This document shows, in pieces, positions 1 to 60,845 of a stretch of DNA of 64,000 bases. Where the stretch lies: contig CM066298.1 in the NCBI GenBank assembly GCA_033816765.1, positions 1-64,000 on the forward strand, read 5' to 3'. This stretch comes from Nothopassalora personata. Lineage: Eukaryota; Ascomycota; Dothideomycetes; Mycosphaerellales; Mycosphaerellaceae. How positions within the stretch are numbered: the first letter of the stretch is position 1; every line of letters begins with the position of its first letter. The translations under genes were made by a program, and so were the position numbers. The notes beneath the pieces were generated by a model. That model saw only the letters and a list, made by a program, of their open reading frames with translations. It was not told the DNA's origin and made no database searches.

Positions 1-180
1 ACCCTAACCCTAACCCTAACCCTAACCCTAACCCTAACCCTAACCCTAACCCTAACCCTAACCCTAACCCTAACCCTAACCCTAACCCTAACCCTAACCC
101 TAACCCTAACCCTAACCCTAACCCTAACCCTAACCCTAACCCTAACCCTAACCCTAACCCTAACCCTAACCCTAACCCTA
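1..180. repeat. telomere, 30 x CCCTAA
   Basis: Thirty uninterrupted 6-bp units read CCCTAA on this strand, so the G-rich TTAGGG strand runs leftward and the chromosome end is at the left edge. TTAGGG is the usual telomere unit of filamentous ascomycetes. The array has no degenerate proximal units and stops abruptly at position 180. The next base belongs to the gag gene of an LTR element. No subtelomeric spacer separates the two. Confidence 0.98.
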
Positions 181-738
181 TACGGGATACCAAATGAGGA
201 GGTATACGCCGACTGACATATCCGACAACTTCGACAGACTACTTCTGTAGCGCTGTACGCCTCAGAATTCCAAGGATATGCCGCCGACCTGGAATGGAAC
301 GACGCAGCTTTGCGATCGCAGTTCTACCTCGGGCTGAAAGACAACGTCAAAGCCGAACTATCCCGAAACGCCAGCGTCGTTACGCTAGGGGCGATGATCA
401 AGGCAGCAAAGGAGATCGACGAAAGGCTCCAGGAGTTGAGGTACGACCGACACGTACAGCCTGGATACCAGAGACCCGCCGCGGGCGGAAGAGGGGGCTT
501 CAAGGCCAGAAGTCAGGACCCTAATGGTTACGGAGACCCAATGGAATTGGACGTAACGGAACGTAGGACAGGAAGGGGGCTGAAGAGCAAAGGTTCCACC
601 TGCTACGTATGTGGCGAGCAAGGCCATTATGCAAGGAACTGCAAGAAAAAGAACATAGTTAGCCGCGAGTTCAACGCGATGATTCGCGAAGAGAATGCAT
701 ACCAGGAATGCGAGAGCTTTCTCTCGAAATCTGCCTAG
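181..738 (+). pseudogene. truncated Gag of gag-only LTR element (copy A)
   Basis: This is the C-terminal part of the Gag encoded intact at 31864-32856, in the same frame. The first 435 bases of the gene are replaced by telomere. It keeps the zinc knuckle CYVCGEQGHYARNC (C-x2-C-x4-H-x4-C), which in Gag proteins binds RNA, and the lysine-rich tail that follows. Besides lacking a start, it has an in-frame TGA at 214-216 where the intact copy has CGA, a RIP-type C-to-T change. It is not expected to make functional Gag. Confidence 0.9.
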
Positions 739-842
739 CAGAAACGACCTGACGATAAAGGCATTAAACAGCGGCTTCTTGATTTGATGACCTAGGACAC
801 AGAAGTCAACACTACGACACGGAAAACAGATAAAGGACGAAC

Positions 843-1403
843 TTACGACGAGACCAACTCCGAGAAGGATTCAGGAAGGAGGAGATTCCCATCCAAGGAC
901 AAGCTAGGGTCGAAGACCGAAGGATCGGAGGCAGGAAACCACCAGTCTTCCGGGATGGAAGGCGGAGCGGCCTCGAGCTCCCCTTGTTCTAACACTTGGA
1001 TGCTCGCCTCCTCGACAGCGATCGCCTCGCCCTCGCGCTTTTCGTGCAGCTCAAGCTGACAACGAAGACGCGCCTCCTTCGCATAGGCTGCCGCGATCTC
1101 TTCACTCTTGCGAACGAGATCATGACGGACCGCTTCAAGCTCACGGGTGAGCTTGTCCCGTACGGACTAAAGGGACTTCCACTCAGCAGGAGTGACTCGC
1201 ACGTCACAACCCTTGATGTTGTGTTCGTTGCACTCCGAACAGCGGCCCGATTTGATGTGGACACGGCACACCTTTTTCTCACGAGTGCAGAAAGAGCACG
1301 ACTTGACCATAGTAATCCCGTTCTCTCGAATGAACTTGGCAAGCTTCTTGCGACGATGCGTACTGGTTTTGGTGACGGGAAGGGAAAGGGAAGAAGAAGA
1401 CAT
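843..1403 (-). pseudogene. antisense zinc-cluster/coiled-coil ORF (copy A)
   Basis: Reading leftward from ATG at 1403, the frame encodes a six-cysteine cluster (C-x2-C-x6-C-x8-C-x2-C-x7-C) at about residues 35-68, then a coiled coil. A single TAG at 1167-1169 interrupts it, and the frame continues to TAA at 843. The gene lies opposite gag, tail to tail, ending about 100 bp from the gag stop and starting about 75 bp from the LTR. It is the same sequence as 32961-33521, described there. Zinc-cluster function is inferred from cysteine spacing only. Confidence 0.7.
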
Positions 1404-1476
1404 CGTTGGATGACAAAGTTGGAAAGGAATGACATCTTGTAAGCTTCGGGACGAAGCTAGGCTAGAAGGGGGATGG

Positions 1477-1795
1477 TGTTACGGATCGGTCTGGGGAAGC
1501 CCGTAGCCAACCAATCGATGCCAGCAGACCAGCGGATGCACCCGATATGCAGAGTGCTCTCAGTGCTCTCGGGTGCTCTCTCGAGAGAGCAGAGAGAGCA
1601 GAGAGAGCAGGAAAGATCACGCCAAGACACGGCACTATATAGACGACGCTCTTTTGCAAGTAGATAGGAGCCTCGTGCTCAACTCATTTTAAGTATACAC
1701 CATATACTGTTTGGGACCACTACCTTCTCAACGAGTCAGAGACATCACTGCAAAGATCCAAGCCCAGTTGGGATAACGTACAGCGGTTCCTAACA
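1477..1795 (+). mobile_element. 3' LTR of truncated gag-only element
   Basis: This 319-bp LTR starts TGTTACGG and ends CCTAACA, with terminal inverted repeat TGTTA/TAACA. It has the same sequence as the LTRs at 31513-31831 and 33595-33913, apart from a C/T change shared with the latter. A purine-rich tract (AGAAGGGGGATGG) lies just before it. The following bases CCTTA correspond to the target duplication seen at the complete copy. Internal GCTCTC units form an inverted array around 1555-1610. Confidence 0.92.
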
Positions 1796-4700
1796 CCTTA
1801 ACGTAATCTAGTTTCTTAGTCTATCTTCTTATTCTTAAGTTTTTATAAGGAGATAGACCTTATCCCCCTCTTTTAGTAGAGGTGCCATTTTTCTTATGTC
1901 CTACCGTTATTAAGACAGTTTTTATTATACATCTTCGATCGCCTTACGTGTTTCTTTATATACTTCCTTAAGAGTATCCGTCGTTACGATTACTCTTTTG
2001 GCTTGTAGGTGAGATCTAGGTGCCCTAAATAGGTTAGGATCTTTACTAAAGTTCGTATAGAATAGTATTGCTAAAGTTGTCTCTAATTTATGGTTGTTTA
2101 GTACAATCTACGCCATTAGTAGTAATGAAACATAGTTGTCTTATGCGTAGTTAATGTAGTGTCGTAGGTGTTATTCTAGCGTTTAGTTTATCCTTTCGGT
2201 TTATTCGTCTATCTCCGGATAATATGCTATTAATAGCTTATGTTTAATTCCGATCGTTCCTATAAGCGTTTTCTAGTAATTTAATGTAAATAACTTGTCT
2301 CTATCCGTTATGAACGCTTAAGGGAATCCGTAGTATTGGATAAGTCTATCTAGTACGAGGTATCCGAGCTACTCTACATTGTATATCTCTAATGTAGGAA
2401 TAAAGTGTACGTATTTTATAAGTCTATTAACTATAACTAGTATTATCTCGTATAGTTGTTTCGTAACTTAATCTCTTAACGGTAGGAGTTTCGTAATAAA
2501 GTCTATTATAACTTCGTCCTATAGCCTCGTCGGTAGTGTCCTAAACTGTAGGTAACCGTATTTTGCATGTCTCGTAGCCTTGTTTCGTTAGTAGTGTACG
2601 TATTATTTAATGTAGCGTAATACCTTAAGTCTTATCTAGGGGAATAAGAAGCTACGTTATATTAGGTCTATTGTCTTTAAAGTTCTAGGGTGTCTATAAG
2701 TTAGTCCGTCGTAATATTGTCGTATACATTCTTCTTCTCGATCCTTTAGTACCTAGTATTTTCCTTACGATATAGGAAATTGTTCGTCCCTATCGCCTAA
2801 TATCCGTACGATGTTATTAAATTCTCTTATGTTAGCGCTAAGACTTCCGTCGGGGTTCGTCTTTAGTACTTTATGTTATACTAGTTCTTTTCCTTCTATA
2901 TAGTCGCTTCTTCGGCTTAGCGCGTCGGCGCGGCTATTCTCTCGTCCTAGAGTATATTTAATTTTGAACTTATACTATCCTAGTAGCTCCGACTAGCGGG
3001 CTTACCTTCGGGTAAGTTCCTTCGTCGTCGTAAAGTACGTAAGATTCTTATAGTTAGAAAGAATCGTTAACTTCGGTAGGCCCTCGACATATACTCTCTA
3101 ATGTTATATAGTAGCAATAATAGCTAGAAGCTCTTTATTATAGATGTCGTAGTTCTATTCCGCTATAGTTATTTTCCGGGAGTAATAGGCTACTAGGTGT
3201 CTCTACCTATCGTGTGTCTATGTTAGACACGCGCCTATTACTATATTAGACGTATCGGTCTCGATATAGACTTCCTTACTACTATCGAATAGTCGAAGCG
3301 TAGGGGCTAAAGCGCATTATTCCTTAAGTTTCTTAAACGCTTTAATCTATTTCTTTCCCTATTTCTAGGTAACGTCCTTTCTTATAAGCATCGTTATTAG
3401 TACTACTGTCCTTACGTAGTCCTTAATGAATTTCCAGTTATAGTTTACTAGTCTAAGGAACGATTGTACGTCCTTAACTGTTTTTAGTTCTAGCTATTCT
3501 CTAATTGACTGTATCTTCGTAGGGTCGATCGTTATCCCTATAGTGCTAATAATAAAGCCTAAGAATTTAACTTCTTTCTTATAGAATTCGCATTTCTCGG
3601 GTACTATCTTGAATCCTAAACGTATAAGTCGTTCGAATACGTCCTAGACTTGTTTTATATAATTCTAAAGGGATCCTTTCGTATAGACTAATATGTCGTC
3701 TATATAAGCGATAACATATACGTCGAGTAGGTCTCTAAGTGTTTCGTTAACAAGGTCCTAATAGGATGCGGGTGCGTTAGTTAATCCCATTAGTATAACT
3801 AAGAATTCGTAGAGTCCGTATCTTATTCTAAAAGCGGTTTTCTATTCTTCTCCTTTAGCTATTCGTATAGCGTAGAAGGCATCTCGTAGGTTAATCTTTA
3901 TGTACTAGTCTAATCCGGTTAATCTATCTTATACTTCTTCGATGTTAGGTAGCGGGTATCGGTTCTTAATCGTAATCTCGTTTAACTTCCTATAGTCTTA
4001 TACGAGTCGTAACTTCCCGTTTGCTTTTAGAACGAACATATATAGAGTTCCTATACTTAAGGTGGATCTTCTTATCTATCCTTTAGCTAGCTTCTCCTTT
4101 AGCTATTCTCGTAGGGTCTATAGCTCTTTCTTAGACATTTAATATAGGGATCCCTATAGAGGCTCTTTCCCTAGCTAAATGTTAATCTTATAATTCTATA
4201 GGCGGTACTTAGGTAAGGCGGTTTTACCTCTCTCCTCTTTAAAGAGTCGCGACTACTTACGATACTCCTAAGGAATACTTAACTCTAAGATGTTAGTATT
4301 CTTCGATAGTACGTTACTTCTATTACTTCTAGTAACTTTATAACTCGGCGGCCCTACGCTAGTGTCTATCCCGGTCGAAGGTAGTTCTTCTATCTTTCTG
4401 TTTAGCGTAAGCTTAAATACGTTAAGCTATTTCCTTACCTTATCTACTATCGTCCACTATCGATACGTAGGCTAAATGTTAATAACGTAGTCGTATTCCC
4501 TAAATGTAAGTACTCCTCTTCTCTAGTCGATTACCGGATTGTGCTTTCTTAACTAAGGTATACCTAATACTATGTTATAACTAGCTATATTAGTAACATC
4601 TAAGGTAATATTCTCGTAGTACTATTAGATAGCTAGTGGTAATAGTATCGTCTCCCATTCTACGCTAGGTAACGATAATCCGTTTACCGCGATTAACTCG

Positions 4701-30502: not shown

Positions 30503-31042
30503 ATGTCTTCTTCCTCCTATAAACGCCGTTAACAACTTACTTAGGATACTAAAATTTCTAGTATTAAAATGGCTCTATGCACGAATTGTTAGAAGTCTCG
30601 ATCCTCGGGCGTAGTAGTAAAGTGTATCGTAGGTTCTCGGTCTAGAAAGTGTTCGGCCTATATTCAAAAAGGCTATAAGGATTACGATATACGTCTCTCT
30701 CGTCTAGAGTAGGAACGTCTTCGCGATTCGCGCGATAATCTTAAGCTAGAACTTAAGAGGATCGAAGAGGAGGAGGTACGGTTAAAGATGCGTAAGATCC
30801 GTCTTCGGAAATAGCTACGATTAGCTAAGCGTCGTACCGACGATACCGTCGCTAAGGAGTTAGAGGAGCTCGAGGAGGAAGAGGCGCGCGAGGAGCTAGC
30901 GTCTCTTAAGCGGGCGTCGGGGGTAGAGGTGTCGCCTTCGCTAGTTTCTTTCTCGGATATCCTAGAGATGCCCGTAAATAACTAGGCGGCGCTTTCTAGA
31001 GCGGAGCCTTAGGGCGAGTCCCTAGGGGTAGAGACTCATTAG
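30503..31042 (+). pseudogene. antisense zinc-cluster/coiled-coil ORF of gypsy-1B
   Basis: The 180-codon frame starts with ATG (MSSSSYKRR) just inside the 3' LTR, on the strand opposite gag-pol. Cysteines CTNC, KC and KCSAY follow the cluster pattern of the ORF at 32961-33521, with the last Cys positions changed to Tyr as RIP would do. A Glu/Arg/Lys-rich coiled coil follows and contains RLRK-stop-L near 30800-30820, where the unmutated relative has Gln. Internal stops are TAG/TAA. It sits between the 3' LTR and the chromodomain end of pol. Confidence 0.6.
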
Positions 31043-31512: not shown

Positions 31513-31831
31513 TGTTACGGATCGGTCTGGGGAAGCCCGTAGCCAACCAATCGATGCCAGCAGACCAGCGGATGCACCCGATATGCAGAGTGCTCTCAGT
31601 GCTCTCGGGTGCTCTCTCGAGAGAGCAGAGAGAGCAGAGAGAGCAGGAAAGATCACGCCAAGACACGGCACTATATAGACGACGCTCTTTTGCAAGTAGA
31701 TAGGAGCCTCGTGCTCAACTCATTTCAAGTATACACCATATACTGTTTGGGACCACTACCTTCTCAACGAGTCAGAGACATCACTGCAAAGATCCAAGCC
31801 CAGTTGGGATAACGTACAGCGGTTCCTAACA
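31513..31831 (+). mobile_element. 5' LTR of the gag-only element
   Basis: The termini are TGTTACGG and CCTAACA. U3 holds an inverted array of GCTCTC units (31591-31646, centre CTCTCTCGAGAGAG), and then a TATA box. It differs from the 3' LTR by a C/T near 31727 (CAAG versus TAAG), indicating a recent insertion. Confidence 0.93.
31672..31678 (+). promoter_or_regulatory. TATA box in the 5' LTR
   Basis: TATATAG lies about 190 bp before the gag ATG and about 30 bp after the GCTCTC array, in the right orientation for transcription of gag. This fits a U3 promoter. The transcription start is not visible. Confidence 0.5.
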
Positions 31832-31863
31832 ACTTTGAGCACCACCACCAGGGCCCTTTGCAT

Positions 31864-32856
31864 ATGTCTGGGAGAGACGCTACCCGGAGTCCGTCACGAC
31901 AACAGCCACAGTCAACTGGCATAACGGAACGAATGAGCGAAATGTCGATTACAGGAAGCAGCAAGAACAACAACACTCCTATGGGTATGCTGAACCCATT
32001 GGACCACCACCGTGCACCTAAGGTGTCTACGCCGGAGACGTTCGACGGGACCAAGGACAAACTGGAGGCTTTTCAACTGCAGGTTCAGTTGTACCTTCAC
32101 TTCAACGCACACCAGTTTCAAGGCGAGGCCAGCAAGGTCTTGTACGCCGCATCCTTCCTACGAGGAAAAGCAGCTAGAGGATTCCGACCATACCTCAAGG
32201 ACTGGCTACACAACCAGGGCGAGGGAGAAACACCGAAAACGGAAACTCGAAAAATTTTCCACGACTACGACGAGTTTGAGACGAAACTCGATGATCTATA
32301 CGGGATACCAAATGAGGAGGTATACGCCGACCGACATATCCGACAACTTCGACAGACTACTTCTGTAGCGCTGTACGCCTCAGAATTCCAAGGATATGCC
32401 GCCGACCTGGAATGGAACGACGCAGCTTTGCGATCGCAGTTCTACCTCGGGCTGAAAGACAACGTCAAAGCCGAACTATCCCGAAACGCCAGCGTCGTTA
32501 CGCTAGGGGCGATGATCAAGGCAGCAAAGGAGATCGACGAAAGGCTCCAGGAGTTGAGGTACGACCGACACGTACAGCCTGGATACCAGAGACCCGCCGC
32601 GGGCGGAAGAGGGGGCTTCAAGGCCAGAAGTCAGGACCCTAATGGTTACGGAGACCCAATGGAATTGGACGTAACGGAACGTAGGACAGGAAGGGGGCTG
32701 AAGAGCAAAGGTTCCACCTGCTACGTATGTGGCGAGCAAGGCCATTATGCAAGGAACTGCAAGAAAAAGAACATAGTTAGCCGCGAGTTCAACGCGATGA
32801 TTCGCGAAGAGAATGCATACCAGGAATGCGAGAGCTTTCTCTCGAAATCTGCCTAG
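31864..32856 (+). CDS. Gag of the non-autonomous LTR element
   Basis: An intact 330-aa frame begins at ATG 31864, the first ATG after the LTR; an upstream TTG is in frame but is not needed. A Gag core lies at about residues 55-200 (FDGTKDKLEAFQLQVQLYL, then an ...FLRGKAARGF...Y stretch), typical of the retrotransposon Gag family that assembles particles. An Arg/Gly-rich linker follows, then a zinc knuckle CYVCGEQGHYARNC at about residues 286-299 and a Lys-rich tail. No protease follows. It is the only intact gag frame in the window with no pol partner in its own element. Copy A at the telomere lacks the first part. Confidence 0.9.
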   Translation: MSGRDATRSPSRQQPQSTGITERMSEMSITGSSKNNNTPMGMLNPLDHHRAPKVSTPETFDGTKDKLEAFQLQVQLYLHFNAHQFQGEASKVLYAASFLRGKAARGFRPYLKDWLHNQGEGETPKTETRKIFHDYDEFETKLDDLYGIPNEEVYADRHIRQLRQTTSVALYASEFQGYAADLEWNDAALRSQFYLGLKDNVKAELSRNASVVTLGAMIKAAKEIDERLQELRYDRHVQPGYQRPAAGGRGGFKARSQDPNGYGDPMELDVTERRTGRGLKSKGSTCYVCGEQGHYARNCKKKNIVSREFNAMIREENAYQECESFLSKSA

Positions 32857-32960
32857 CAGAAACGACCTGACGATAAAGGCATCAAACAGCGGCTTCTTGA
32901 TTTGATGACCTAGGACACAGAAGTCAACACTACGACACGGAAAACAGATAAAGGACGAAC

Positions 32961-33521
32961 TTACGACGAGACCAACTCCGAGAAGGATTCAGGAAGGAGG
33001 AGATTCCCATCCAAGGACAAGCTAGGGTCGAAGACCGAAGGATCGGAGGCAGGAAACCACCAGTCTTCCGGGATGGAAGGCGGAGCGGCCTCGAGCTCCC
33101 CTTGTTCTAACACTTGGATGCTCGCCTCCTCGACAGCGATCGCCTCGCCCTCGCGCTTTTCGTGCAGCTCAAGCTGACAACGAAGACGCGCCTCCTTCGC
33201 ATAGGCTGCCGCGATCTCTTCACTCTTGCGAACGAGATCATGACGGACCGCTTCAAGCTCACGGGTGAGCTTGTCCCGTACGGACTAAAGGGACTTCCAC
33301 TCAGCAGGAGTGACTCGCACGTCACAACCCTTGATGTTGTGTTCGTTGCACTCCGAACAGCGGCCCGATTTGATGTGGACACGGCACACCTTTTTCTCAC
33401 GAGTGCAGAAAGAGCACGACTTGACCATAGTAATCCCGTTCTCTCGAATGAACTTGGCAAGCTTCTTGCGACGATGCGTACTGGTTTTGGTGACGGGAAG
33501 GGAAAGGGAAGAAGAAGACAT
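32961..33521 (-). pseudogene. antisense Zn2Cys6-like/coiled-coil ORF of the gag-only element
   Basis: From ATG at 33521 leftward: a Ser-rich start; basic residues; then six cysteines spaced C-x2-C-x6-C-x8-C-x2-C-x7-C (CSFC at the start, CSEC in the middle), which fits the consensus of fungal Zn(II)2Cys6 DNA-binding clusters. One TAG (33285-33287), likely a former CAG, follows at residue 79. The frame then continues through a charged coiled coil with RLRCQL and ends at TAA 32961-32963, 186 codons in all. It faces gag tail to tail and starts about 74 bp from the 3' LTR. Related frames in the same place occur in gypsy-1B and gypsy-3. DNA binding is inferred from spacing only; a two-zinc knuckle of another kind is the alternative. 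Confidence 0.7.
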
Positions 33522-33580
33522 CGTTGGATGACAAAGTTGGAAAGGAATGACATCTTGTAAGCTTCGGGACGAAGCTAGGC

Positions 33581-33594
33581 TAGAAGGGGGATGG
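33581..33594 (+). promoter_or_regulatory. polypurine tract
   Basis: TAGAAGGGGGATGG directly precedes the 3' LTR, where plus-strand DNA synthesis is primed in LTR elements. The matching tract in gypsy-1B, on the minus strand, is AAGAAGGGGATAG next to its 3' LTR. This fixes the element orientation as that of gag. Confidence 0.75.
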
Positions 33595-33913
33595 TGTTAC
33601 GGATCGGTCTGGGGAAGCCCGTAGCCAACCAATCGATGCCAGCAGACCAGCGGATGCACCCGATATGCAGAGTGCTCTCAGTGCTCTCGGGTGCTCTCTC
33701 GAGAGAGCAGAGAGAGCAGAGAGAGCAGGAAAGATCACGCCAAGACACGGCACTATATAGACGACGCTCTTTTGCAAGTAGATAGGAGCCTCGTGCTCAA
33801 CTCATTTTAAGTATACACCATATACTGTTTGGGACCACTACCTTCTCAACGAGTCAGAGACATCACTGCAAAGATCCAAGCCCAGTTGGGATAACGTACA
33901 GCGGTTCCTAACA
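33595..33913 (+). mobile_element. 3' LTR of the gag-only element
   Basis: This is 319 bp, TGTTACGG to CCTAACA, followed by the target duplication CCTTA. It has the same length as the 5' LTR. Confidence 0.93.
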
Positions 33914-36900
33914 CCTTAACGTAATCTAGTTTCTTAGTCTATCTTCTTATTCTTAAGTTTTTATAAGGAGATAGACCTTATCCCCCTCTTTTAGTAGAGG
34001 TGCCATTTTTCTTATGTCCTACCGTTATTAAGACAGTTTTTATTATACATCTTCGATCGCCTTACGTGTTTCTTTATATACTTCCTTAAGAGTATCCGTC
34101 GTTACGATTACTCTTTTGGCTTGTAGGTGAGATCTAGGTGCCCTAAATAGGTTAGGATCTTTACTAAAGTTCGTATAGAATAGTATTGCTAAAGTTGTCT
34201 CTAATTTATGGTTGTTTAGTACAATCTACGCCATTAGTAGTAATGAAACATAGTTGTCTTATGCGTAGTTAATGTAGTGTCGTAGGTGTTATTCTAGCGT
34301 TTAGTTTATCCTTTCGGTTTATTCGTCTATCTCCGGATAATATGCTATTAATAGCTTATGTTTAATTCCGATCGTTCCTATAAGCGTTTTCTAGTAATTT
34401 AATGTAAATAACTTGTCTCTATCCGTTATGAACGCTTAAGGGAATCCGTAGTATTGGATAAGTCTATCTAGTACGAGGTATCCGAGCTACTCTACATTGT
34501 ATATCTCTAATGTAGGAATAAAGTGTACGTATTTTATAAGTCTATTAACTATAACTAGTATTATCTCGTATAGTTGTTTCGTAACTTAATCTCTTAACGG
34601 TAGGAGTTTCGTAATAAAGTCTATTATAACTTCGTCCTATAGCCTCGTCGGTAGTGTCCTAAACTGTAGGTAACCGTATTTTGCATGTCTCGTAGCCTTG
34701 TTTCGTTAGTAGTGTACGTATTATTTAATGTAGCGTAATACCTTAAGTCTTATCTAGGGGAATAAGAAGCTACGTTATATTAGGTCTATTGTCTTTAAAG
34801 TTCTAGGGTGTCTATAAGTTAGTCCGTCGTAATATTGTCGTATACATTCTTCTTCTCGATCCTTTAGTACCTAGTATTTTCCTTACGATATAGGAAATTG
34901 TTCGTCCCTATCGCCTAATATCCGTACGATGTTATTAAATTCTCTTATGTTAGCGCTAAGACTTCCGTCGGGGTTCGTCTTTAGTACTTTATGTTATACT
35001 AGTTCTTTTCCTTCTATATAGTCGCTTCTTCGGCTTAGCGCGTCGGCGCGGCTATTCTCTCGTCCTAGAGTATATTTAATTTTGAACTTATACTATCCTA
35101 GTAGCTCCGACTAGCGGGCTTACCTTCGGGTAAGTTCCTTCGTCGTCGTAAAGTACGTAAGATTCTTATAGTTAGAAAGAATCGTTAACTTCGGTAGGCC
35201 CTCGACATATACTCTCTAATGTTATATAGTAGCAATAATAGCTAGAAGCTCTTTATTATAGATGTCGTAGTTCTATTCCGCTATAGTTATTTTCCGGGAG
35301 TAATAGGCTACTAGGTGTCTCTACCTATCGTGTGTCTATGTTAGACACGCGCCTATTACTATATTAGACGTATCGGTCTCGATATAGACTTCCTTACTAC
35401 TATCGAATAGTCGAAGCGTAGGGGCTAAAGCGCATTATTCCTTAAGTTTCTTAAACGCTTTAATCTATTTCTTTCCCTATTTCTAGGTAACGTTCTTTCT
35501 TATAAGCATCGTTATTAGTACTACTGTCCTTACGTAGTCCTTAATGAATTTCCAGTTATAGTTTACTAGTCTAAGGAACGATTGTACGTCCTTAACTGTT
35601 TTTAGTTCTAGCTATTCTCTAATTGACTGTATCTTCGTAGGGTCGATCGTTATCCCTATAGTGCTAATAATAAAGCCTAAGAATTTAACTTCTTTCTTAT
35701 AGAATTCGCATTTCTCGGGTACTATCTTGAATCCTAAACGTATAAGTCGTTCGAATACGTCCTAGACTTGTTTTATATAATTCTAAAGGGATCCTTTCGT
35801 ATAGACTAATATGTCGTCTATATAAGCGATAACATATACGTCGAGTAGGTCTCTAAGTGTTTCGTTAACAAGGTCCTAATAGGATGCGGGTGCGTTAGTT
35901 AATCCCATTAGTATAACTAAGAATTCGTAGAGTCCGTATCTTATTCTAAAAGCGGTTTTCTATTCTTCTCCTTTAGCTATTCGTATAGCGTAGAAGGCAT
36001 CTCGTAGGTTAATCTTTATGTACTAGTCTAATCCGGTTAATCTATCTTATACTTCTTCGATGTTAGGTAGCGGGTATCGGTTCTTAATCGTAATCTCGTT
36101 TAACTTCCTATAGTCTTATACGAGTCGTAACTTCCCGTTTGCTTTTAGAACGAACATATATAGAGTTCCTATACTTAAGGTGGATCTTCTTATCTATCCT
36201 TTAGCTAGCTTCTCCTTTAGCTATTCTCGTAGGGTCTATAGCTCTTTCTTAGACATTTAATATAGGGATCCCTATAGAGGCTCTTTCCCTAGCTAAATGT
36301 TAATCTTATAATCCTATAGGCGGTACTTAGGTAAGGCGGTTTTACCTCTCTCCTCTTTAAAGAGTCGCGACTACTTACGATACTCCTAAGGAATACTTAA
36401 CTCTAAGATGTTAGTATTCTTCGGTAGTACGTTACTTCTATTACTTCTAGTAACTTTATAACTCGGCGGCCCTACGCTAGTGTCTATCCCGGTCGAAGGT
36501 AGTTCTTCTATCTTTCTGTTTAGCGTAAGCTTAAATACGTTAAGCTATTTCCTTACCTTATCTACTATCGTCCACTATCGATACGTAGGCTAAATGTTAA
36601 TAACGTAGTCGTATTCCCTAAATGTAAGTACTCCTCTTCTCTAGTCGATTACCGGATTGTGCTTTCTTAACTAAGGTATACCTAATACTATGTTATAACT
36701 AGCTATATTAGTAACATCTAAGGTAATATTCTCGTAGTACCGTTAGATAGTAAGTGGTAGCGGTATCGTCTCGCGCTCTATACTAGGTAAGGATAATCCG
36801 TCTACCGCGATTAATTTATAACCCTCTTTCTTCTTATAGGTAGCGATCCTATAATCTATAATAAATAATTCGGAGGTAAAGTTCCCGCTTACTCCGGAAT

Positions 36901-46667: not shown

Positions 46668-47073
46668 TGTTAGGTTTGGTTAAACCTATAATCTTACTAA
46701 GTTAACTAACAAGTTAGGTGACCTTCGTTCGATCGAGATTTGTTCTCGTCGAGTAGGAGTAGGAGGGAGAGCAGTATAAAGTAGTAGCGAGGCAGCGGTT
46801 AGGTAAGGTTATATTCTAAACAGTAAGTTTAAACAGTAAGTTAAACGCCCCGAAAGCTATAGGGCATTTCGCTACGTTCCTAAATATAAAGGAATATATT
46901 ATCTAGATCTATAGTGTCTATCTATAGATTCTATAGATCTAAAGGGTCTATAGTGTCTATCGAGGGAGCGATAGATCCTCTATATAGGGGATCTATATCA
47001 CGAGACACGGATCCTAATATCGTTACGTGCTAGTGCGGGGGAGCCTTAGGCCTATCGCGCTTAGACCGTAATA
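46668..47073 (-). mobile_element. gypsy-3 3' LTR
   Basis: This 406-bp LTR runs from TGTTAGGTTTGGTTAAACC to CCGTAATA (a RIP form of CCGTAACA). The left end is like the LTR at 30026-30429. CTAAA precedes it, the expected duplication, but the partner is not found. TCTATAG-type repeats lie at 46895-46990, where gypsy-1 carries TAATTAGTCTAAG units. Confidence 0.8.
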
Positions 47074-47149
47074 CTATCTCCCTTCCGGCCTAGTCTCGTC
47101 CCGAGACTAGTTATAACCTTAACGTCTCCTACTTCGTCTATAGGTAAGG

Positions 47150-47788
47150 ATGTCTTCCCTTCTTCCTACTCTTATCTTACCCTTAGACGCGCTATCTACT
47201 CGAAAGCGAAAGAACCGCGTAAATCGCGTCTATCGCCTTGGAGAAGAAGTTATAAAGCCTTATTCTCGGTGTACGAAGAATAACCTAGTATACCGTGTGC
47301 ATATCTCGTCCGGAAAATGTTCTTATTACTATCTTAGTAACGTAGCGCGGTGCGATACGAAGGTAACTAAGGTAGAGTAGAAAAAGCTCGGGGATTAGTA
47401 AAAGAAGTTATTAGCCGATCTCGATTGTATAAAGGAGGCTCTTTCGGAGGCTTTAGCAAAAATGATAGAGGCGTATACGAAGGAGATGCGTCTTCGGAAG
47501 TAATTAGATACTATTAACCGTAAGGTAGAGGAGGGTCGTACTCTCGAGGAGCGAGAGACCGAGGAGGAGGAAGCGGCGGATCGGGAGCTAGTAGCGTAGG
47601 GCTTACTACTCGAACCTATATCTAATTCCGGTCTTACTCTAAGTCCTCTAACTCGGAGCGCTATAGATAGTTTCGCCGATAATAGGTTCTAGGGTTTTCT
47701 TAACGGTGTAGTAGCGGAACCTATTAACGGCGCGCTCCCGCTACTTAGCGGTAGTAGAAATCTTTTAGTAGCTAGCGGCAATTCGTAA
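47150..47788 (+). pseudogene. antisense zinc-cluster/coiled-coil ORF of gypsy-3
   Basis: A 213-codon frame starts from ATG, opposite to gag-pol, just inside the 3' LTR. The cluster reads YSRC...VYRVHISSGKCSYYYL...RC. The Tyr residues stand where the relative at 32961-33521 has Cys (RVHIKSGRCSEC), each a TGT/TGC to TAT/TAC change expected from RIP. The coiled coil contains EAYTKEMRLRK-stop-LD near 47479-47512, against AAYAKEARLRCQLE in the unmutated ORF. It is followed by an acidic part. Stops are TAG/TAA. Confidence 0.65.
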
Positions 47789-53444: not shown

Positions 53445-53605
53445 TGTAAGGGCACCTGCTTAGGTAGTACGAAGTTGTTAGACAAGCTATCTAAGAGGTG
53501 CGCGAGGCGCGAGAAGTTAATATACAAGCCGAGGCACGCGGGTCGGCCCGGGCCCGGTCACGTAACTCGCCACGTTCACTCGCTGTGCGGCCATGGGCCG
53601 TCACA
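53445..53605 (-). mobile_element. 3' LTR of the chromovirus
   Basis: 161 bp, identical to the other LTR. It is flanked on the left by TATAT. It contains a GC-rich near-palindrome, GGCCCGGGCCC. Confidence 0.95.
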
Positions 53606-54441
53606 CCACCCCCCCCTTCAAAACGGTCACTCCTGTGCACCGTGTCAAGGGAAGTTTGATGTCCATTTCGCTTGTCGCTTCGGTCACAGTCATCGGTTAC
53701 CTTTGTTGGTGCCATGCCTGGCGGGTCATCATCTTCATACGAGCCGTTGTCTTCTGCCAGAAGAGCCACAGGCACCTGCGCGATCAATTCGCGTGGCCCT
53801 CCTGCGGTTACTGGGTTGGACGTAATCATCGCAGCACTGAGGGTGCCCGCGTCATCAGATGGTGCTTCCTCATTCGCAATCCATCCTAGCGGTGGTGTGA
53901 AGCCGGCTGGTCTAGGGGCCGTAGGGTGGTTGTGATGGAAGTCGGCGACAGAGGCGGCTGCTGTTGCAATCATAGTCTCTGCGGGCTCCCAAGTTAGCTC
54001 GTTATCACCTACCCACTTCACGCAGTACTTGTAGATTGGGACCTTTCCTCCTGCTGGCGCACGCCCTGGCGGCAGCGACCTGTGCGAGTCCACGACTTTC
54101 TCCACGTGCCATTCCTGGTGAGACCCATCTTCGTCCTCCACCTCGATTGGCGGAGGCGGAGGGACGACTTGTCCTGTGACTGGGTCGTAGCCTGGTCGCA
54201 AGTAATTGGCGTGGAACCCGTCATACAGGTTGCTCAGTGAGTCTGGCAATGCGACTCGATATGTGTCGTGTGGCAGCACTTCCTTGATCGGGTAAGGACC
54301 CGCATACTTGTAGTCCAGTTTCTTAGACGGGCGTGTGGTGTGCCAGTTCTTGGTGCTAATGTGCACCATGTCGCCTAACTTGTATGCTGGTGCTATGGTC
54401 CTGCGTCGGTTGGCATACTCCGCTTGTGTATCTTGCGCCAT
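53491..54441 (-). pseudogene. chromovirus integrase C-terminus and chromodomain
   Basis: 316 codons follow an in-frame TAA (54442-54444). First comes the integrase C-terminal module with GDMVHISTKNWHTTRPSKKL and YKYAGPYPI. Next is a proline-rich linker. Then a chromodomain around EWHVEKVVDSHR...YKYCVKWVGDNELTWEP (about residues 110-155), which would bind modified histone tails and guide integration. The last 150 codons are low in conserved motifs and run into the LTR. Confidence 0.85.
53606..53620 (-). promoter_or_regulatory. polypurine tract of the chromovirus
   Basis: On the minus strand the tract TGAAGGGGGGGGTGG directly precedes the 3' LTR. This is the expected primer site for plus-strand synthesis. 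Confidence 0.75.
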
Positions 54442-55176
54442 TTACATGGCGTCTCTGAGTGCCTGCCTGAGTTCATTCATCCGGGCTCCGAATGCAGTCG
54501 CCGATTGTGCATCGAGGCGTTGCTTGTGTGGCATGAGTTCCAGCGGCAGCATGACTTCTGCGTCTGAATACCTCGGGTTCTTGCCTAGCGTTGCCATGAA
54601 TGGGGAGAATCCGGTAGATTCTGACACGTGGTCGTTCGCAGTGAACTCTGCTAGAGGCAGCCAATCCGGCCAGTCGTCCTGGGCATAGTTGGTATACGTG
54701 CGCAGGTACTTCTCCATGGCCTTGTTCGTGATCTCGCTTTGCCCATCTGTTTAGGGGTGGTAGCCCGTTAACAGCTTGCGCTTGATGCCTAGTAGCTGGC
54801 ATAGGCGCTTCTAGAATGCGGAAAGCCATTGGGGTCCTCTGTCTGTAACGATCGACTTAGGCAGCCCATGGCGGCTGAACACGTACTTGAGGTAGATGAA
54901 CGCAATGTACTCTGCGCTCATGTTGAGCACTGGGATCAGATGCCGCTCCTTACTCAGGCGGTCTGTTACTGTGAGAACGTTTTTGTACTTCTGCCCATCT
55001 GCGGTGCAGCGTGCTTCGGGCAGCTCGACTACGAAGTCCATTGCGATGTCGTCCCATGTGTCGAGTGGCACTGGCAACGGTGCTAGCAATCCGTGTTCGG
55101 CATCCTGCACTGGGTTCACGTTTGTGCACGTCGTGCATCCTTTGCAGAACTCGCGTATGAAGCGTGTCATGCCTGG
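54442..55176 (-). pseudogene. chromovirus integrase core
   Basis: This continues the pol frame after a TAG at 55177-55179. It shows the second zinc-binding pair (CKGCTTC), the catalytic core with DTWDDIAMDFVVELP and VTDRGPQWLS, and the Glu region up to NYAQDDW. It is interrupted by TAG 54811-54813 (Trp position), TAA 54751-54753 and TAA 54442-54444 (Gln positions). All are RIP-type, so integrase is not made as one protein. Confidence 0.87.
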
Positions 55177-57453
55177 CTAGATATAGTGGCGTTTCAATAG
55201 GGTGTTGGTCTTAGTCTTTCCTGGGTGACCTGCGGCTGGGGCGTCGTGAAATGCTTTCACTATGCGGGCATACACCGTGTTGCCTTCATCATCTTCAGCT
55301 GGTTCTGGGACATACAGGCTGTAGCCACCTTCTCTGTTCTTGACGTAGATCATTCCATCTACTGCCATCGCGTGCTTAGGGTCGATCTTGTGCCTGTGGA
55401 GCATCTTCACCTTGTCGCCAGCTGCCAGCTGTTGCAGGGCCTCTTGTGGTTCTTGCTGTTCGTATAGGGATCGGATGTCGCGTTGTAGGTCCTCATCCAC
55501 AACGCCGGTGGCTTCCGATGCCGCGAGTTGTAGGATTCTGCTGGCTAACAAGTTCGGCATAAACAATTCGGGTCCTAGCAACACGCGATGCTGCTGCGTG
55601 TGCCGGGGATCATCCTCGTCCTTGCGTATCGCATCTTGTGAGCGGCGGGTAAGGCTATCGGGCTTGCCTCCCTGCACTCCTGGTCTGTAGATGATCTTGA
55701 AGTGGAATTGCGATAGGAATTCTGCCCAGCGTGCTTGGCGCCGGTTGAGTTCCTTCGTGGTCATGAAGTACTCAAGGTTCTTGTGGTCTGAGTAGACGAG
55801 CACTGGCTTGCCACTTGGGTCGGCCAGGAAGTTCTCGCAATCGCTGCCCACGCAGTCCTTGTCATCGATGTCACCTGCTGCCAGCTCAGGACGCCATTCT
55901 TCGAACGCTTTGACAATAGCGAGCAACTCTTTGTCATAGATGTCGTAGTTGCATTCCTGGGGTGACATCTTCTTAGACAGATATGCCACTGGTCTCAAGA
56001 TGCCATTATGACGTTCGGAGAGGACCGCTGCGGTGACGAAGTCCGAAGCGTCAGTCTCAAGCACTGTCTCCAGCCCATGCTGGAAGACTGCGAGGATTTC
56101 TCCTTCTGCATCGGTGAATGCTTTCTTGAGGCCGTCGAACGCTGCTTGGCACTCTGCCGTCCATTGCCATGGCACGTCTTTCTTGGTGAGGCGGGTAAGC
56201 GGCAGTGTTATCTTGCTGTAGTTCTTAATGAATCGTCGATAGAAGCCAGCGAATCCGTTGAATGCAAGCACATCCGTGACATTACGAGGTGTTTCCCATT
56301 CTTGCACTGCTCTCACCTTCTCCGGGCACATGGAGATGCCGTCCTTGCCAATAATAAGGCCAAGGTACTTGGTCGATTGGGTGTGGAATTCACACTTCTT
56401 GATATCAAGTTGCAGGCCTGCGTCTCTGCAGCGCCCTAGCACCTTCTTCACATGTCCAATGTGCTCTTCAAGCGTGTCGCTAAAGATGAGGATATCATCT
56501 AGATAGGCTGATGCAAAGTCATCTAGGAACTCCCGTAGCGTGTCGTTCACATAAGCTTGGAACGTTCCTGGGGCGTTGCATAGGCCGAATGGCATGACTA
56601 GACATTCGAACTGCCCATAGCGGGTAGTGAACGCTGTCATCCACTCATGCCCCTTTGCGATGCGGATGCGGTTGAATGCTGCAATCACATCTAGCTTCGT
56701 AAACCACTTCTTTCCTGCGATGCGGTTCAAGGTGTCCTGCATCAGGGGAATAGGGTATCTTGACTTGATGGTAAGTGCATTGAGGGCTCTGTAATCAACG
56801 CATACTCTCAACCCACCTCCTGGCTTCTTAACGATAAGGCACGGAGATGCAGCATCGGCGCGGCCTTCATTCTTGCGGATCTTGCCTTGGGCGATCTGTT
56901 CGTCAGTCCAGTGCTTGATGATCTCGTCTTCTTGCTTAGACATGCGGTATGGTCGCTTGAAGGGTGGCACGGCATCGGGTTTCAGCTTGATCTCATGGTC
57001 AATCCCAGGCCGGTGTGGCGGAAGCTCTTCTGAAGCCTTCTTCGAGAAGCAATCAGCGAACTCGTGGTATGTTGGCATAAGGTGGTCCTTTGGATCGATC
57101 TCTTGGTCGTTGACTTTCATGAACTTGTCCACGTCTGCTTGTGCGTGCATCTTGCAGGAACGGAGTGTTGGGGCTACACGTTCTGATGCTGGTATGAATG
57201 CAGCGGCACGCGCGTTCAGCCTTGAGATCGTCTTTTCGTCTGACAGCATCTTACAGTTGCCTCCAGCAACTGTCTTCATGTTGTGCGCCGTCATGGCGCA
57301 AGCGGCAAGCGAGTCGCCCGCTCGCTGCTGCTCCACCTTGGGGTCATAGACATACATTAGGTGAACTTGCGCGCCCTTTTGCTTGGCGAGGCGCACGAAG
57401 TAGTCTGCATTGACTTCTTTAATGTCGATGTTCTTCTTAGGCTCTTCTGCTTG
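55177..57453 (-). pseudogene. chromovirus RT, RNase H and integrase zinc-binding N-terminus
   Basis: This is open for about 759 codons after an in-frame TAA (57454-57456). Counted from 57396, RT covers residues about 150-340, with GLRVCVDYRALN, LVMPFGLCNAPGTFQ and the catalytic YLDD at 298-301. The connection and RNase H domain follow to about residue 590 (ETDASDF, YDKELLAIVKA, YSDHKNLEYF). The first integrase zinc-binding residues are near the end (AAGHPGKTKTNTLLKRHY). The domain order RT-RNase H-integrase is that of Ty3/gypsy. All RT catalytic residues are present. Confidence 0.92.
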
Positions 57454-58280
57454 TTAAGCTGCGGCTTCGGCAGCTGCTGCTACTGCTGCTGCCACAGCGG
57501 CCGTTGCTTCCTTTGCTTCGAGTCTCTTAGCAGCCCGGCGAACTTTTCCAGGGCCGCGCGTTGTCATGCGCTTAATGGTGTCTTCGCCGTCAGCCGGCAG
57601 TGGCAGACGGGCGTGCTGCCAAGTGACATCTCCTTCGTCATCTTCTTCCACGGTTGCCGAGCGGTACTTGCTAGGAAGCTCCTCGTGGGTCTGGAACGTA
57701 AGGACTGGGTTCTGGTCTTGATTATTGACTGACTGCACCCACGTCGCTTCCTTTCCGGACAGGCAGTTGTCCTTGCAGTGTTGAGAATCGAGCGTCATAG
57801 TGCCGGACTCATAATGCAGGCCTGGTTGATGCTTGTCGTGCCATGGTCTCCCTAAGACGATGTCGTATTCGAGGTTGGTGAGCCAGGCATTGATCACTTC
57901 GGAGTGCCCGTTAATCTCCAGGGTGAGCTCCGTACGGTATTCGATCATTTCCTTTGCAGTGGACATGTCGGCGAGGCCCAGTGCCAATGGGCTGTCCAGC
58001 TTCGAGAGTGGCAGGTCATTCTTTCGCGCATATACGATGTCAACGTAGTTTGAATTGGCTCCGTCATCAAGGAATGAGAATGCATATTTTCCATTCGCTG
58101 TGCAAGGCACCACTAGGTGTGATCCTATTACAGGGTTGTGCTCTATGTGCACCATTCGTAAGGAATGAGATGATATTCTGAGATCACCTTCCCCAATCCC
58201 TTCTGACTTCGGCCTTGACGTTGACGTGTTCGTATCCAGTCCACTGGTTGTTGCGCTCAACGAGTGGACTAGGCTTTTTC
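57454..58280 (-). CDS. chromovirus protease region
   Basis: The frame lies one base back (-1) from gag and is open across the gag stop (58269-58271), so a -1 ribosomal frameshift near the GGAAAAAGCC stretch would join it to Gag. A retropepsin-like segment FSFLDDGANSNYVD (about residues 62-75 counted from 58260) stands where most families have D-T/S-G; here it is D-D-G. IVLGRPWHDKHQPGLHY follows as the second conserved block. An Ala-rich C-terminus ends at TAA 57454-57456, likely a former CAA, after which the same frame continues into RT. Confidence 0.75.
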
Positions 58281-60455
58281 CGACTGGGTAGTCGGGCGCG
58301 GTGGCATCTGGTAGTTCCAGAGCTCACACTCCTTGTCGGTCAGCTGGTGACCTGGCTTGCGGCACTTCTTGCACAGTCTCTCCTTCATGCAACGCTCAGT
58401 CTCAGCGTCGTCAAGAAGAGTGAGGTGCTTGAACTCAGCTGGGCGAGAGTCCCATGGCAGGCGGTCCACCTTGCGGCGATTCTTTAAGCCGCCTCCGCCA
58501 GATCCGGCTGGAGTGGTGCCGTTGGGCTTGTCGTCCTTCTTGTCGTCCTTCTTGTCGTCCTTCTTGGCCGTAGACTTCTTCTTCGGGTGAAGAGTCTCGG
58601 CGACCTTGAAATCCTCCTCAGCCTTGAACAGGGCATCGACTGCTTCGCTGAGGGTCTTAGGGTTTGCTTGCTGATAGCGGATCAGATAGCGGTAGTTGAG
58701 CTTGCGCATGAGGTTGTCCATAGCGTCTTCTCCGGTCATGCGCATCAAGTTGGCATAACGGCGCCACTCGCGGTAGAGTTCGGCGAAGGAGTCCTTGGAG
58801 TTGTCCTCTGGCTGCTTCAACACAGCCATGTTGTCGCGAGCGCGGCCGACGGGGTTGCGATCGCCGTACCACTCGATGAGGGACTTCATCATCTTGTTAA
58901 CTGATGAATACGGGCGCTCGCTTCCGCTCATGATGCCTGCGATGGATGGAACCTTCGGGTTGAGCAGCGCCCAAGCGCCTCCGTCGGTGTAATCCAGTAT
59001 GAACTTGAGCACGGCATCCTTGTTACGGAACGTGGTGGCGGCGAGCTTGGTCTCCAGTGCGCTGAGCCACTTCTCAAGCGATGGTCCCTTTAGGTCGCCT
59101 TCCTTGCTGAGGTCGCCTTGAAACTTATGCTTGGGGCCTTCGACACTTCGGTCCGTCTTCCAAGGACGATCGAGTGACTCGTCGATGTCCAGGATGTTGT
59201 TGAAGTTGATCTTGGTGACCTTCTTGGTCTTCTTGGACTTGCGGCGGCGAGCGCGGCGGTCATCGTCTGAGGACTCGTCGCTGCTACTGCTGCTGCTGCT
59301 GTCACTGCTATCCGGATCGTATCTCGGCTTCCTGCTCTTGCGCTGCTTGCCAGCCCTGTCCTTCTTGCTAACCTCTTCACCTGACTCATCGGATGAGTCT
59401 CCGCCGCTGGACTGCTTGCCAGTCCTGCCTTGGTCCTTCGGCGGTGATGGCTCTCTTCCAGCACGTCGACGAGAGATGGAACGTGAGAGCGAGGAGCGAC
59501 GATCCTTGCCTCGTGCTTCGGTGCGCCCACGCTGCTCGGCTGCTTCGAGCTCCTTAGCATGCGCGTTGCGAAGGGCTTGGATGTCGCGCTCGTGATCGGC
59601 AACGGCTTCTTCGTAGTTGTCCACTTCACGCTCCAGCTCTCCAATGCGAGCCTCTCGCTCCTTGACCCAGACCATTGCTTGCTTGGCATGCTCGTACGCT
59701 TTCTGGGAGTCAGTTGGAATGGGCAGGGCCTTAAGTGCATCGAGTTCGATCTTGACGGTGTCCAGGTCCTTGATAACTGTGTCGCGCTCAGCGCTGGCGG
59801 TGTCACGATCGGCGGTGACTTTAGCCAGGTGGTCGCGCAGGTCCTTTTGCTGGGCATCGGAGGCCTTCAGTAACTTGTCCAAGTCCGACACCTGCTTCTT
59901 CGCATCCCCGAGATCCTTTTGAACCTTGTCGAGTTCCTTCTGAACTTTGTCTCCATATTCTTGGCTCTGGTGACAGCTCGTGTACAACATCTCTGCAAGC
60001 TTCGAGACGTTGCGGTATTCCTGTTCGCCGCGGCGGAGGATGAAGTGGATGGCGGGAGGTGCGGAAACGTCGCTGCCGTACAGCTTCTCGAACTTCTCGA
60101 TATCGAGTTGAGTGAGGGACTTGAGTGTCGCTCGATAGGTCTTCGCGACTTGTTGTGCTTCCTCGGCTCCCTCTTCTGCTTCGTCCGTCGCTGCATCGTC
60201 CATGTAGTCCACGGCTACCATAGCCTCCTTGCCTTCTTCCTCGATGATCTCGTCGTCGTGTAGGAAATCGCTGATGTTGAGGTATGGCTGTGGATCAGTG
60301 ACGGGCTTGCCTAGTTCAATCATCTTCTGATACTGGCGGTCTTGTTCTTGCTCTTGCGTCGCATCGCGACCTTGAGTCTGTGTGTTGAGCACCGACTCGC
60401 GTTGCACCACTGGTCGCATTGCCAGCAGCGACTGGCGTCCATTCTGACGCACCAT
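58269..60455 (-). CDS. chromovirus Gag
   Basis: The frame is intact, 728 aa from the first ATG (60455); it is also open upstream to a GTG at 60590. Order: an acidic N-terminal region; a long coiled coil (about residues 175-320) with repeated Asp-Leu-Asp-Lys heptads; an Arg/Ser-rich and poly-Ser acidic segment (about 325-420); a Gag core with GDLKGPSLEKWLSALETKL and following helices (about 440-620); Lys/Asp repeats (KKDDKKDDKKDD); and a zinc knuckle CKKCRKPGHQLTDKEC (C-x2-C-x4-H-x6-C) close to the C-terminus. The Gag is unusually long because of the coiled coil and RS-like part. Confidence 0.9.
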   Translation of the reverse strand: MVRQNGRQSLLAMRPVVQRESVLNTQTQGRDATQEQEQDRQYQKMIELGKPVTDPQPYLNISDFLHDDEIIEEEGKEAMVAVDYMDDAATDEAEEGAEEAQQVAKTYRATLKSLTQLDIEKFEKLYGSDVSAPPAIHFILRRGEQEYRNVSKLAEMLYTSCHQSQEYGDKVQKELDKVQKDLGDAKKQVSDLDKLLKASDAQQKDLRDHLAKVTADRDTASAERDTVIKDLDTVKIELDALKALPIPTDSQKAYEHAKQAMVWVKEREARIGELEREVDNYEEAVADHERDIQALRNAHAKELEAAEQRGRTEARGKDRRSSLSRSISRRRAGREPSPPKDQGRTGKQSSGGDSSDESGEEVSKKDRAGKQRKSRKPRYDPDSSDSSSSSSSDESSDDDRRARRRKSKKTKKVTKINFNNILDIDESLDRPWKTDRSVEGPKHKFQGDLSKEGDLKGPSLEKWLSALETKLAATTFRNKDAVLKFILDYTDGGAWALLNPKVPSIAGIMSGSERPYSSVNKMMKSLIEWYGDRNPVGRARDNMAVLKQPEDNSKDSFAELYREWRRYANLMRMTGEDAMDNLMRKLNYRYLIRYQQANPKTLSEAVDALFKAEEDFKVAETLHPKKKSTAKKDDKKDDKKDDKPNGTTPAGSGGGGLKNRRKVDRLPWDSRPAEFKHLTLLDDAETERCMKERLCKKCRKPGHQLTDKECELWNYQMPPRPTTQSEKA

Positions 60456-60684
60456 CTCGTTACCTTGGGCGCGATGGGGTGTCGCGCTTGTTGACTTGGG
60501 GTGTTGACTTAACTTGGGCACGTCTTCTCTGCGTGCGTTTGTTGACTTAACTTGAGTGCGTTTGTCGTCGCACTTTTCTTGGAGTCGCACTCGGCCTGTG
60601 GACTCAACGCGCTTGTCGCGTTACTTGATCTGCCCTTCGCAGATCCTTCGCAGCTTGTCTGCGGAAAAGAACGGTCTAACAAAG

Positions 60685-60845
60685 TGTAAGGGCACCTGCT
60701 TAGGTAGTACGAAGTTGTTAGACAAGCTATCTAAGAGGTGCGCGAGGCGCGAGAAGTTAATATACAAGCCGAGGCACGCGGGTCGGCCCGGGCCCGGTCA
60801 CGTAACTCGCCACGTTCACTCGCTGTGCGGCCATGGGCCGTCACA
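60685..60845 (-). mobile_element. 5' LTR of the chromovirus
   Basis: 161 bp, identical to the left LTR and followed on the right by TATAT (60846-60850). The first internal bases on the coding strand read CTTTGTTAGACCG, the place of the primer binding site. I cannot assign the tRNA. Confidence 0.95.

Follow-up and report, generated by a model that had tools for sequence, protein, structure and literature searches.

The window, that is, the whole 64-kb stretch of DNA analysed here (the first 64 kb of contig 12, in a genome of 54.5 Mb and 40 contigs), opens with CCCTAA repeats and contains a gag-only LTR element, hereafter type A, whose 5' and 3' LTRs (31513-31831 and 33595-33913, each 319 bp) differ by one mismatch. 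ATG-started antisense frames are present in this element and in two others, gypsy-1B and gypsy-3, as an earlier note on this DNA had described. The relevant features are:

31513-33913, forward strand: gag-only LTR element of type A, flanked at both ends by the target-site duplication CCTTA
31513-31671, forward strand: U3 of the type A 5' LTR, upstream of gag, carrying the same array as the 3' LTR
31864-32856, forward strand: gag, 330 aa, with Retrotrans_gag domain and CCHC knuckle
32961-33521, reverse strand: antisense ORF of type A, a putative Zn2Cys6-like regulator, with TAG at codon 79 in the window copy
33560-33576, no strand assigned: hairpin adjoining the polypurine tract, 7-bp stem and 3-base loop
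33595-33753, forward strand: U3 of the type A 3' LTR, upstream of the TATATAG core
33673-33727, no strand assigned: type A word array, candidate binding sites, three TGCTCTC followed by three GAGAGCA
843-1403, reverse strand: antisense ORF of type A in a telomere-truncated segmental duplicate, with the same TAG as 32961-33521
30503-31042, forward strand: antisense ORF of gypsy-1B, RIP-mutated, resembling type F by eye
47150-47788, forward strand: antisense ORF of gypsy-3, RIP-mutated, 56% identical to type G
46881-47073, reverse strand: U3 of the gypsy-3 LTR, which as counted takes in the first core bases

Several details of the earlier description needed correction. The frame at 843-1403 had been counted as a separate copy, and the type A frame had been taken as unmutated. 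Positions 178-4622 repeat 32296-36740 at an offset of 32118 bp with five mismatches, the telomere cutting inside gag; as the block is duplicated together with its right flank, the two frames represent one insertion seen twice in a subtelomeric duplication, and codon 79 is TAG in both. The cysteine spacing reported for the frame (C-x2-C-x6-C-x8-C-x2-C-x7-C) was found as described, as was the conversion of a glutamine codon to a stop: both RIP-mutated copies read RLRK-stop-L where type A has RLRCQL or RLRRQL. The motif RVHI(K/S)SG(R/K)CS, said to be common to all three elements, holds for type A and gypsy-3, gypsy-1B reading CIVGSRSRKCS instead. The window also harbours an LTR element (53445-60845) that looks fresh: its 161-bp repeats are identical and its gag and pol frames long. 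It apparently leaves no space for an antisense gene and would represent a lineage lacking the arrangement.

A search of the genome with the type A protein (150 matches scored of 781 candidates) recovered 32 near-identical copies, 26 of them open over their full length, five with one TAG and one frameshifted. It also revealed groups 37-46% identical to A, whose stop-free copies numbered 15 of 15 in type B, 14 of 24 in C, three of three in D, four of five in E and 14 of 14 in F. A second search, with the type H1 protein (134 matches), added H1 (26 copies), H2 (5), H3 (7), H5 (9), H6 (6) and H7 (14), all devoid of stops within the matched part, and type G is represented by 14 copies without stops. 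Open copies could thus be read for 13 types (A-G, H1-H3 and H5-H7; H6 only to the end of the fetched stretch), whose proteins share 19-63% identity. Outside these types fall J (40% like G, two copies, each with one TAA), H4 (interrupted by stops, 50-54% like H1) and a large number of RIP-mutated relatives.

The frames are tightly associated with LTR elements. Among 121 gags scored at 98% identity or more, from 1050 candidates, 96 have an antisense ORF of known type within 1.5 kb on their 3' side and on the opposite strand, none of these 96 being a same-strand pair. A further 16 gags are followed by G (11), a truncated D (3, one of them placed by flanking matches rather than by reading) or J (2), so that 112 of the 121 have an ORF in antisense orientation between their last sense gene and the 3' LTR; nine have none assigned. 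Viewed from the ORF, types A, D, F, H1, H2, H3 and H7 together account for 101 frames, of which 94 stand beside a scored gag; for H6 the figure is two of six. This adjacency within the genome studied, together with numerous and diverse homologues, disfavours a host gene captured once, the explanation that the earlier note had set against its own. Nine open types are found on the gag-only body (A, D, F, G, H1, H2, H3, H6 and H7), as is J. The elements on which B, C and E were read have pol as well as gag, the antisense ORFs of B and E overlapping pol at its 3' end, and H5 was assigned to gag-pol elements by its LTR core alone. The distance from the antisense ATG to the 3' LTR, measured in 11 types, is 73-102 bases.

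Several gag-only elements occur in tandem: contig 12 (1355698-1366475) holds a chain of six type H1 frames with their gags at an exact spacing of 2056 bp, and tandem pairs are present on C5 (A), C8 (G) and C11 (H7). On contig 1 (5714134-5776192), RIP-mutated relatives of the antisense ORF recur every ~10,775 bp, three per strand, in mirrored order. The hairpin by the polypurine tract also has counterparts, in gypsy-3 (47090-47110 of the window) and in the spacers of other types, with stems of 7-9 bp whose sequence varies by type and short, pyrimidine-rich loops (TCC in A, C, D, F and gypsy-3; CCC in G; TCCC or TCCT in E and H5-H7; CCA in B). Each was matched by 2-28 of 300 shuffles, and none was recovered in the spacers of H1-H3. 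Between the place of the hairpin and the antisense ATG, the spacers of the H-clade types H2, H3, H5 and H6 contain CACGTG, followed in some of them by TATA-like stretches; together these make a possible candidate for an antisense promoter.

Selection was assessed in the three closest pairs of types, where dN/dS was 0.16 (H1-H2), 0.20 (H1-H3) and 0.09 (H2-H3), values that are rough because dS lies between 1.6 and 4. In all three pairs, changes are concentrated at third codon positions of the antisense frame, and each of the three sense-strand frames contains stops, which rules out a sense-strand protein for the pairs tested. More distant pairs with finite dS gave dN/dS of 0.14-0.51 at saturated dS. 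Purifying selection on the antisense frame, the check on which the earlier interpretation depended, is shown for the three closest pairs. Chance does not account for frames that stay open in types 37-46% identical to A, at copy numbers from several to 15 per type, nor for this selection and the six conserved cysteines: the antisense ORF is real and protein-coding. Its description as a conserved third gene is thus supported, and the gene is more widely spread than first seen.

The consensus of the Zn2Cys6 family (PF00172) is C-x2-C-x6-C-x5..12-C-x2-C-x6..8-C. Canonical spacing was found in 12 of the 13 types, the exception being F, with a longer first loop; among 57 homologues, 33 fitted a strict pattern, 17 a loose one and seven neither. 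The Pfam Zn_clus profile (PF00172) scored type A at 10.4 bits (E = 0.72), below the gathering cut-off of 21, and we therefore call the protein Zn2Cys6-like rather than a member of PF00172. AlphaFold2 predicted a long helix in both types modelled: in type A, residues 72-145, overlapping a confident block (residues 21-140, pLDDT 91-98), and in H1, whose model is weaker (mean pLDDT 77.6), residues 63-129. The top two PDB structures returned by Foldseek for type A were both the Zn2Cys6 protein Pho7, at weak E values of 0.65 and 0.86. The VIA matches that touched the head were Hap1, Leu3, Ppr1 and Pho7 for type A, all Zn2Cys6 proteins, and for H1 included Hap1, Put3, AlcR, Pho7, Leu3, Ppr1 and Gal4 among others; all were weak, and for both types unrelated coils scored above the Zn2Cys6 proteins, as the long helix alone draws them. 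A sequence search of the PDB with the antisense protein gave no meaningful match. At the other end, 63 of 66 proteins are net acidic over their last 50 residues, and these tails hold 4.6 aromatic residues per 50, against 1.3 per 50 elsewhere (H6 being read only to the end of the fetched stretch); acidic, aromatic tails are typical of activation domains.

Named homologues were found in Elasticomyces, Cryoendolithus, Cercospora and Sporormia. In a tree of 78 proteins, from which six short homologues were left out, the 13 types of this genome require 11 label changes, at least ten of them forced by well-supported branches, compared with 12.3 for shuffled labels; they are interleaved with proteins of other sources. 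By bit score, ten types have their best match in another source (narrowly for C and H6), H1-H3 being the exceptions. The closest outside matches are 82-93% identical and may derive from the same or a sister species. A scan of viral contigs yielded 49 pattern matches, none of them a relative.

The GCTCTC array that the earlier note had seen in the LTR was located in U3, at 33673-33727, as TGCTCTC and its reverse complement GAGAGCA. The starts of the six words are spaced 9-11 bp apart, and three forward words facing three reverse ones in this way would suit a dimer. We then examined U3s of the other types by shuffling. The top 7-mer was reached by at most one of 500 shuffles in six of the 12 types tested, G being left out (A, B, C, E, H2 and H3); the signal was weak in H6, H7 and D (19, 36 and 37 shuffles, respectively), and there was no enrichment in H5, H1 and F (61, 415 and 451). 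Nine words, picked from these same U3s, were also counted across all 13 types. Four were restricted to one type (GGTCGA in H2, GGCTCGA in H5, CTCAGTC in H6 and CAGATCC in G), CGAGCAG was almost confined to H3 (19 occurrences, against one in H2), and GAGATCA was shared by C and F. The remaining three were found in five types each, with peaks of 6-7 (GAGAGCA in A and C, CAGATCA in B, CTGATCA in E) and 1-3 occurrences in other types. A degenerate motif chosen after inspecting the U3s, TG[AC]TC[AT][CG], was as frequent in none of 1000 shuffles for A-F and H7, and showed no enrichment in G, H1, H2, H3, H5 and H6. On the protein side, the first zinc loop has Glu at its third position in A (TREKKV) and C (QKEGRV), whose words end in CTC, and His in E (EKHGRV) and B (RAHSRV), whose words end in CAG or CTG; with four cases only, this position is a possible candidate for a specificity residue.

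Comparison of whole elements shows the ORF and the adjoining U3 behaving as one exchangeable module. Between the autonomous elements C and E, a stretch of 5638 bp that runs from the LTR core across gag and almost to the end of pol shows 98.35% identity. Outside it, matches are confined to the LTR tip and to 48 bp adjoining the LTR: the U3s are unalignable (z = 1.7) and the antisense proteins are 38% alike. Drift would not have kept the body at 98%, and the 3' module must therefore have been exchanged. Likewise, gag-only elements A, D, F and H1 are 95.6-98.3% identical over ~1.3-1.45 kb of LTR core and gag, and BLASTN found no alignment between their antisense ORFs. The proteins of A, D and F are 36-41% alike and their U3s still align at 75-80%, so that sites and proteins have not diverged in step and the swap is less clear-cut there. 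Exchange of the gene and its adjacent control DNA as a block on a shared body, in the manner of phage immunity modules, is seen most sharply in the C-E pair.

On balance, we favour the view that the ORF encodes a self-specific transcription regulator of the element, probably an activator or anti-silencer of its own LTR. The product would be a Gal4-style protein, with an N-terminal Zn2Cys6-like head, a long dimerisation helix and an acidic, aromatic tail. Antisense transcription would start from the inner edge of the 3' LTR, and the dimer would bind the short words arrayed in the U3s of its element type, at both LTRs. In the 5' LTR this would activate the sense promoter or keep it from being silenced, and in the 3' LTR it would do the same for the antisense promoter of the regulator itself. 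Because the gene and its proposed sites lie side by side at the 3' terminus of the genomic RNA, a single template switch during reverse transcription could carry ORF, polypurine tract and U3 together, and an old gag-pol body would so gain a new private switch. The earlier idea of a regulator acting on the arrays of its own LTRs gains ground to the extent that other types have arrays too, made of other words; DNA binding, self-specificity and activation, like antisense transcription and the template-switch route, are what we infer from this arrangement.

The protein might instead bind its own U3 to shut it, providing copy-number control and immunity, in which case new specificity types would evade resident repression as phage immunity groups do. 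Such self-repression would account for the many types on one body, forming old lineages, and the arrays do sit just upstream of the TATA-like core. The tail, in contrast, is of the kind generally known from activators, and several types are present at 14-32 near-identical copies, which would make repression late or weak. We consider self-repression unlikely, an activator or anti-silencer role being the more likely of the two.

A less probable reading still is that a DNA-binding protein with some other role sits next to U3 repeats that merely hitchhike. Contiguity makes the co-transfer of ORF and U3 automatic, so their joint inheritance alone proves no binding; the U3s of A, D and F are alike when their proteins are not; and similarity of U3 words did not follow protein identity (Mantel r = 0.096, p = 0.15). 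An alignment-based Mantel test, tried after this word-based one had failed, related U3 similarity to ORF clade (r = 0.36, p = 0.0014), weakly to protein identity (r = 0.21, p = 0.03) and not to body type (r = 0.14, p = 0.17): U3 relatedness tracks the ORF clade more than the element body. Against mere hitchhiking stand the significant arrays in six of 12 types, the confinement, or near confinement, of five of the nine words to one type, and the behaviour of the type G word on two bodies. Type G is open on the gag-only body (locus L082), and its relative gypsy-3 has, by eye, an autonomous-type core. Of the nine type words, taken in RIP-tolerant form, only that of G is present in the gypsy-3 U3, where it occurs twice (25 of 1000 shuffles as high), and the rest of the two U3s aligns poorly. 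This is the direction predicted by a regulator matched to its sites, at modest strength: one case and two sites.

It is improbable that the protein is a nuclear or integration cofactor, binding LTRs or chromatin and aiding cDNA import or targeting rather than transcription. The arrays are indeed located in the LTR, and the pol of type C ends in what looks by eye like a chromodomain; however, the arrays lie inside U3 and not at the LTR tip, and they vary by type when the TGTTACGG tip is common. Control by the antisense RNA itself, for which the antisense position and, in B and E, the overlap with pol at its 3' end could speak, is highly improbable, given that the protein frame is under selection in all three pairs tested and that six cysteines persist across types 19-63% alike.

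Elements with some of these properties are known elsewhere. TR-GAG elements are non-autonomous LTR elements with gag and without pol; those described here add a second, antisense gene. HTLV-1 encodes HBZ, a dimerising regulator, in an antisense gene near its 3' LTR, and the foamy virus Tas protein transactivates its own LTR. Both differ from the present case in being unrelated proteins of retroviruses, with no set of private arrays.

The earlier note knew of no fungal precedent for the arrangement. For the antisense gene itself there is one: brtn, reported in Boty-like Ty3/gypsy elements of Botrytis (PMC8365987, PMC7264820, PMC4227169, PMC5987419, citing Zhao et al. 2011), lies antisense between pol and the 3' LTR (PMC7264820), in a fungal gypsy element with a chromodomain (PMC4227169). 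Compared by description rather than by sequence, it differs in that Zn2Cys6 identity, U3 arrays and module swapping are absent from the excerpts of these papers available to us; the Zn2Cys6-like identity and the module exchange appear new relative to it. In Arabidopsis, VANC proteins of VANDAL transposons are sequence-specific and target tandem arrays of short motifs in their own non-coding DNA, which differ between related elements; binding and loss of methylation have been shown for VANC (PMC5735166, PMC10398659). The likeness lies in a transposon-encoded protein paired with short-motif arrays that vary by type, a pairing that is putative here. VANDALs, in contrast, are DNA transposons, and the VANC domains DUF1985 and DUF287 are absent from the Pfam matches of type A up to E = 10, as is PF04195 (TRP28). 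The latter characterises the antisense ORF of plant Retand elements, which also lies between pol and the 3' LTR and is predicted to bind DNA, in elements with family-specific, mostly internal tandem repeats, some of them non-autonomous (PMC11963269); Retand thus resembles our elements in layout, and differs in its TRP28 rather than Zn2Cys6-like protein, in the place of its repeats and in that the available text describes no module exchange. Finally, Tnt1 combines a conserved body with a strongly diversified U3, without mention, in the part of the source available, of an element-encoded regulator travelling with U3 (PMC1838419). Subscription literature aside, our searches brought up no paper describing an antisense gene of Zn2Cys6 type in LTR elements of fungi, which is weak evidence of absence. 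As far as the excerpts of these descriptions go, the combination of an antisense Zn2Cys6-like gene, U3 arrays and module exchange appears new.

An element of this kind seems to bring its own transcription factor and its binding sites as a swappable pair, and the swapped versions of gene and control DNA suggest that each element may run a private on/off switch. More broadly, and with about equal chances of being right or wrong, fungal Ty3/gypsy elements, gag-only ones included, may carry diversified private circuits, each consisting of an antisense regulator and its cognate U3 array and swapped as a cassette. With at least 13 specificity types coexisting in one genome and older than the species, such elements would form regulatory compatibility groups, comparable to phage immunity groups or mating-type specificities. 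If this is true, they would offer no fewer than 13 natural protein-array pairs with which to study how Zn2Cys6 proteins choose their DNA. The VANC principle would gain an independent instance in a different kingdom and element class, and the coexistence of many types would have a testable explanation, through escape from host silencing, from mutual repression or from cross-activation.
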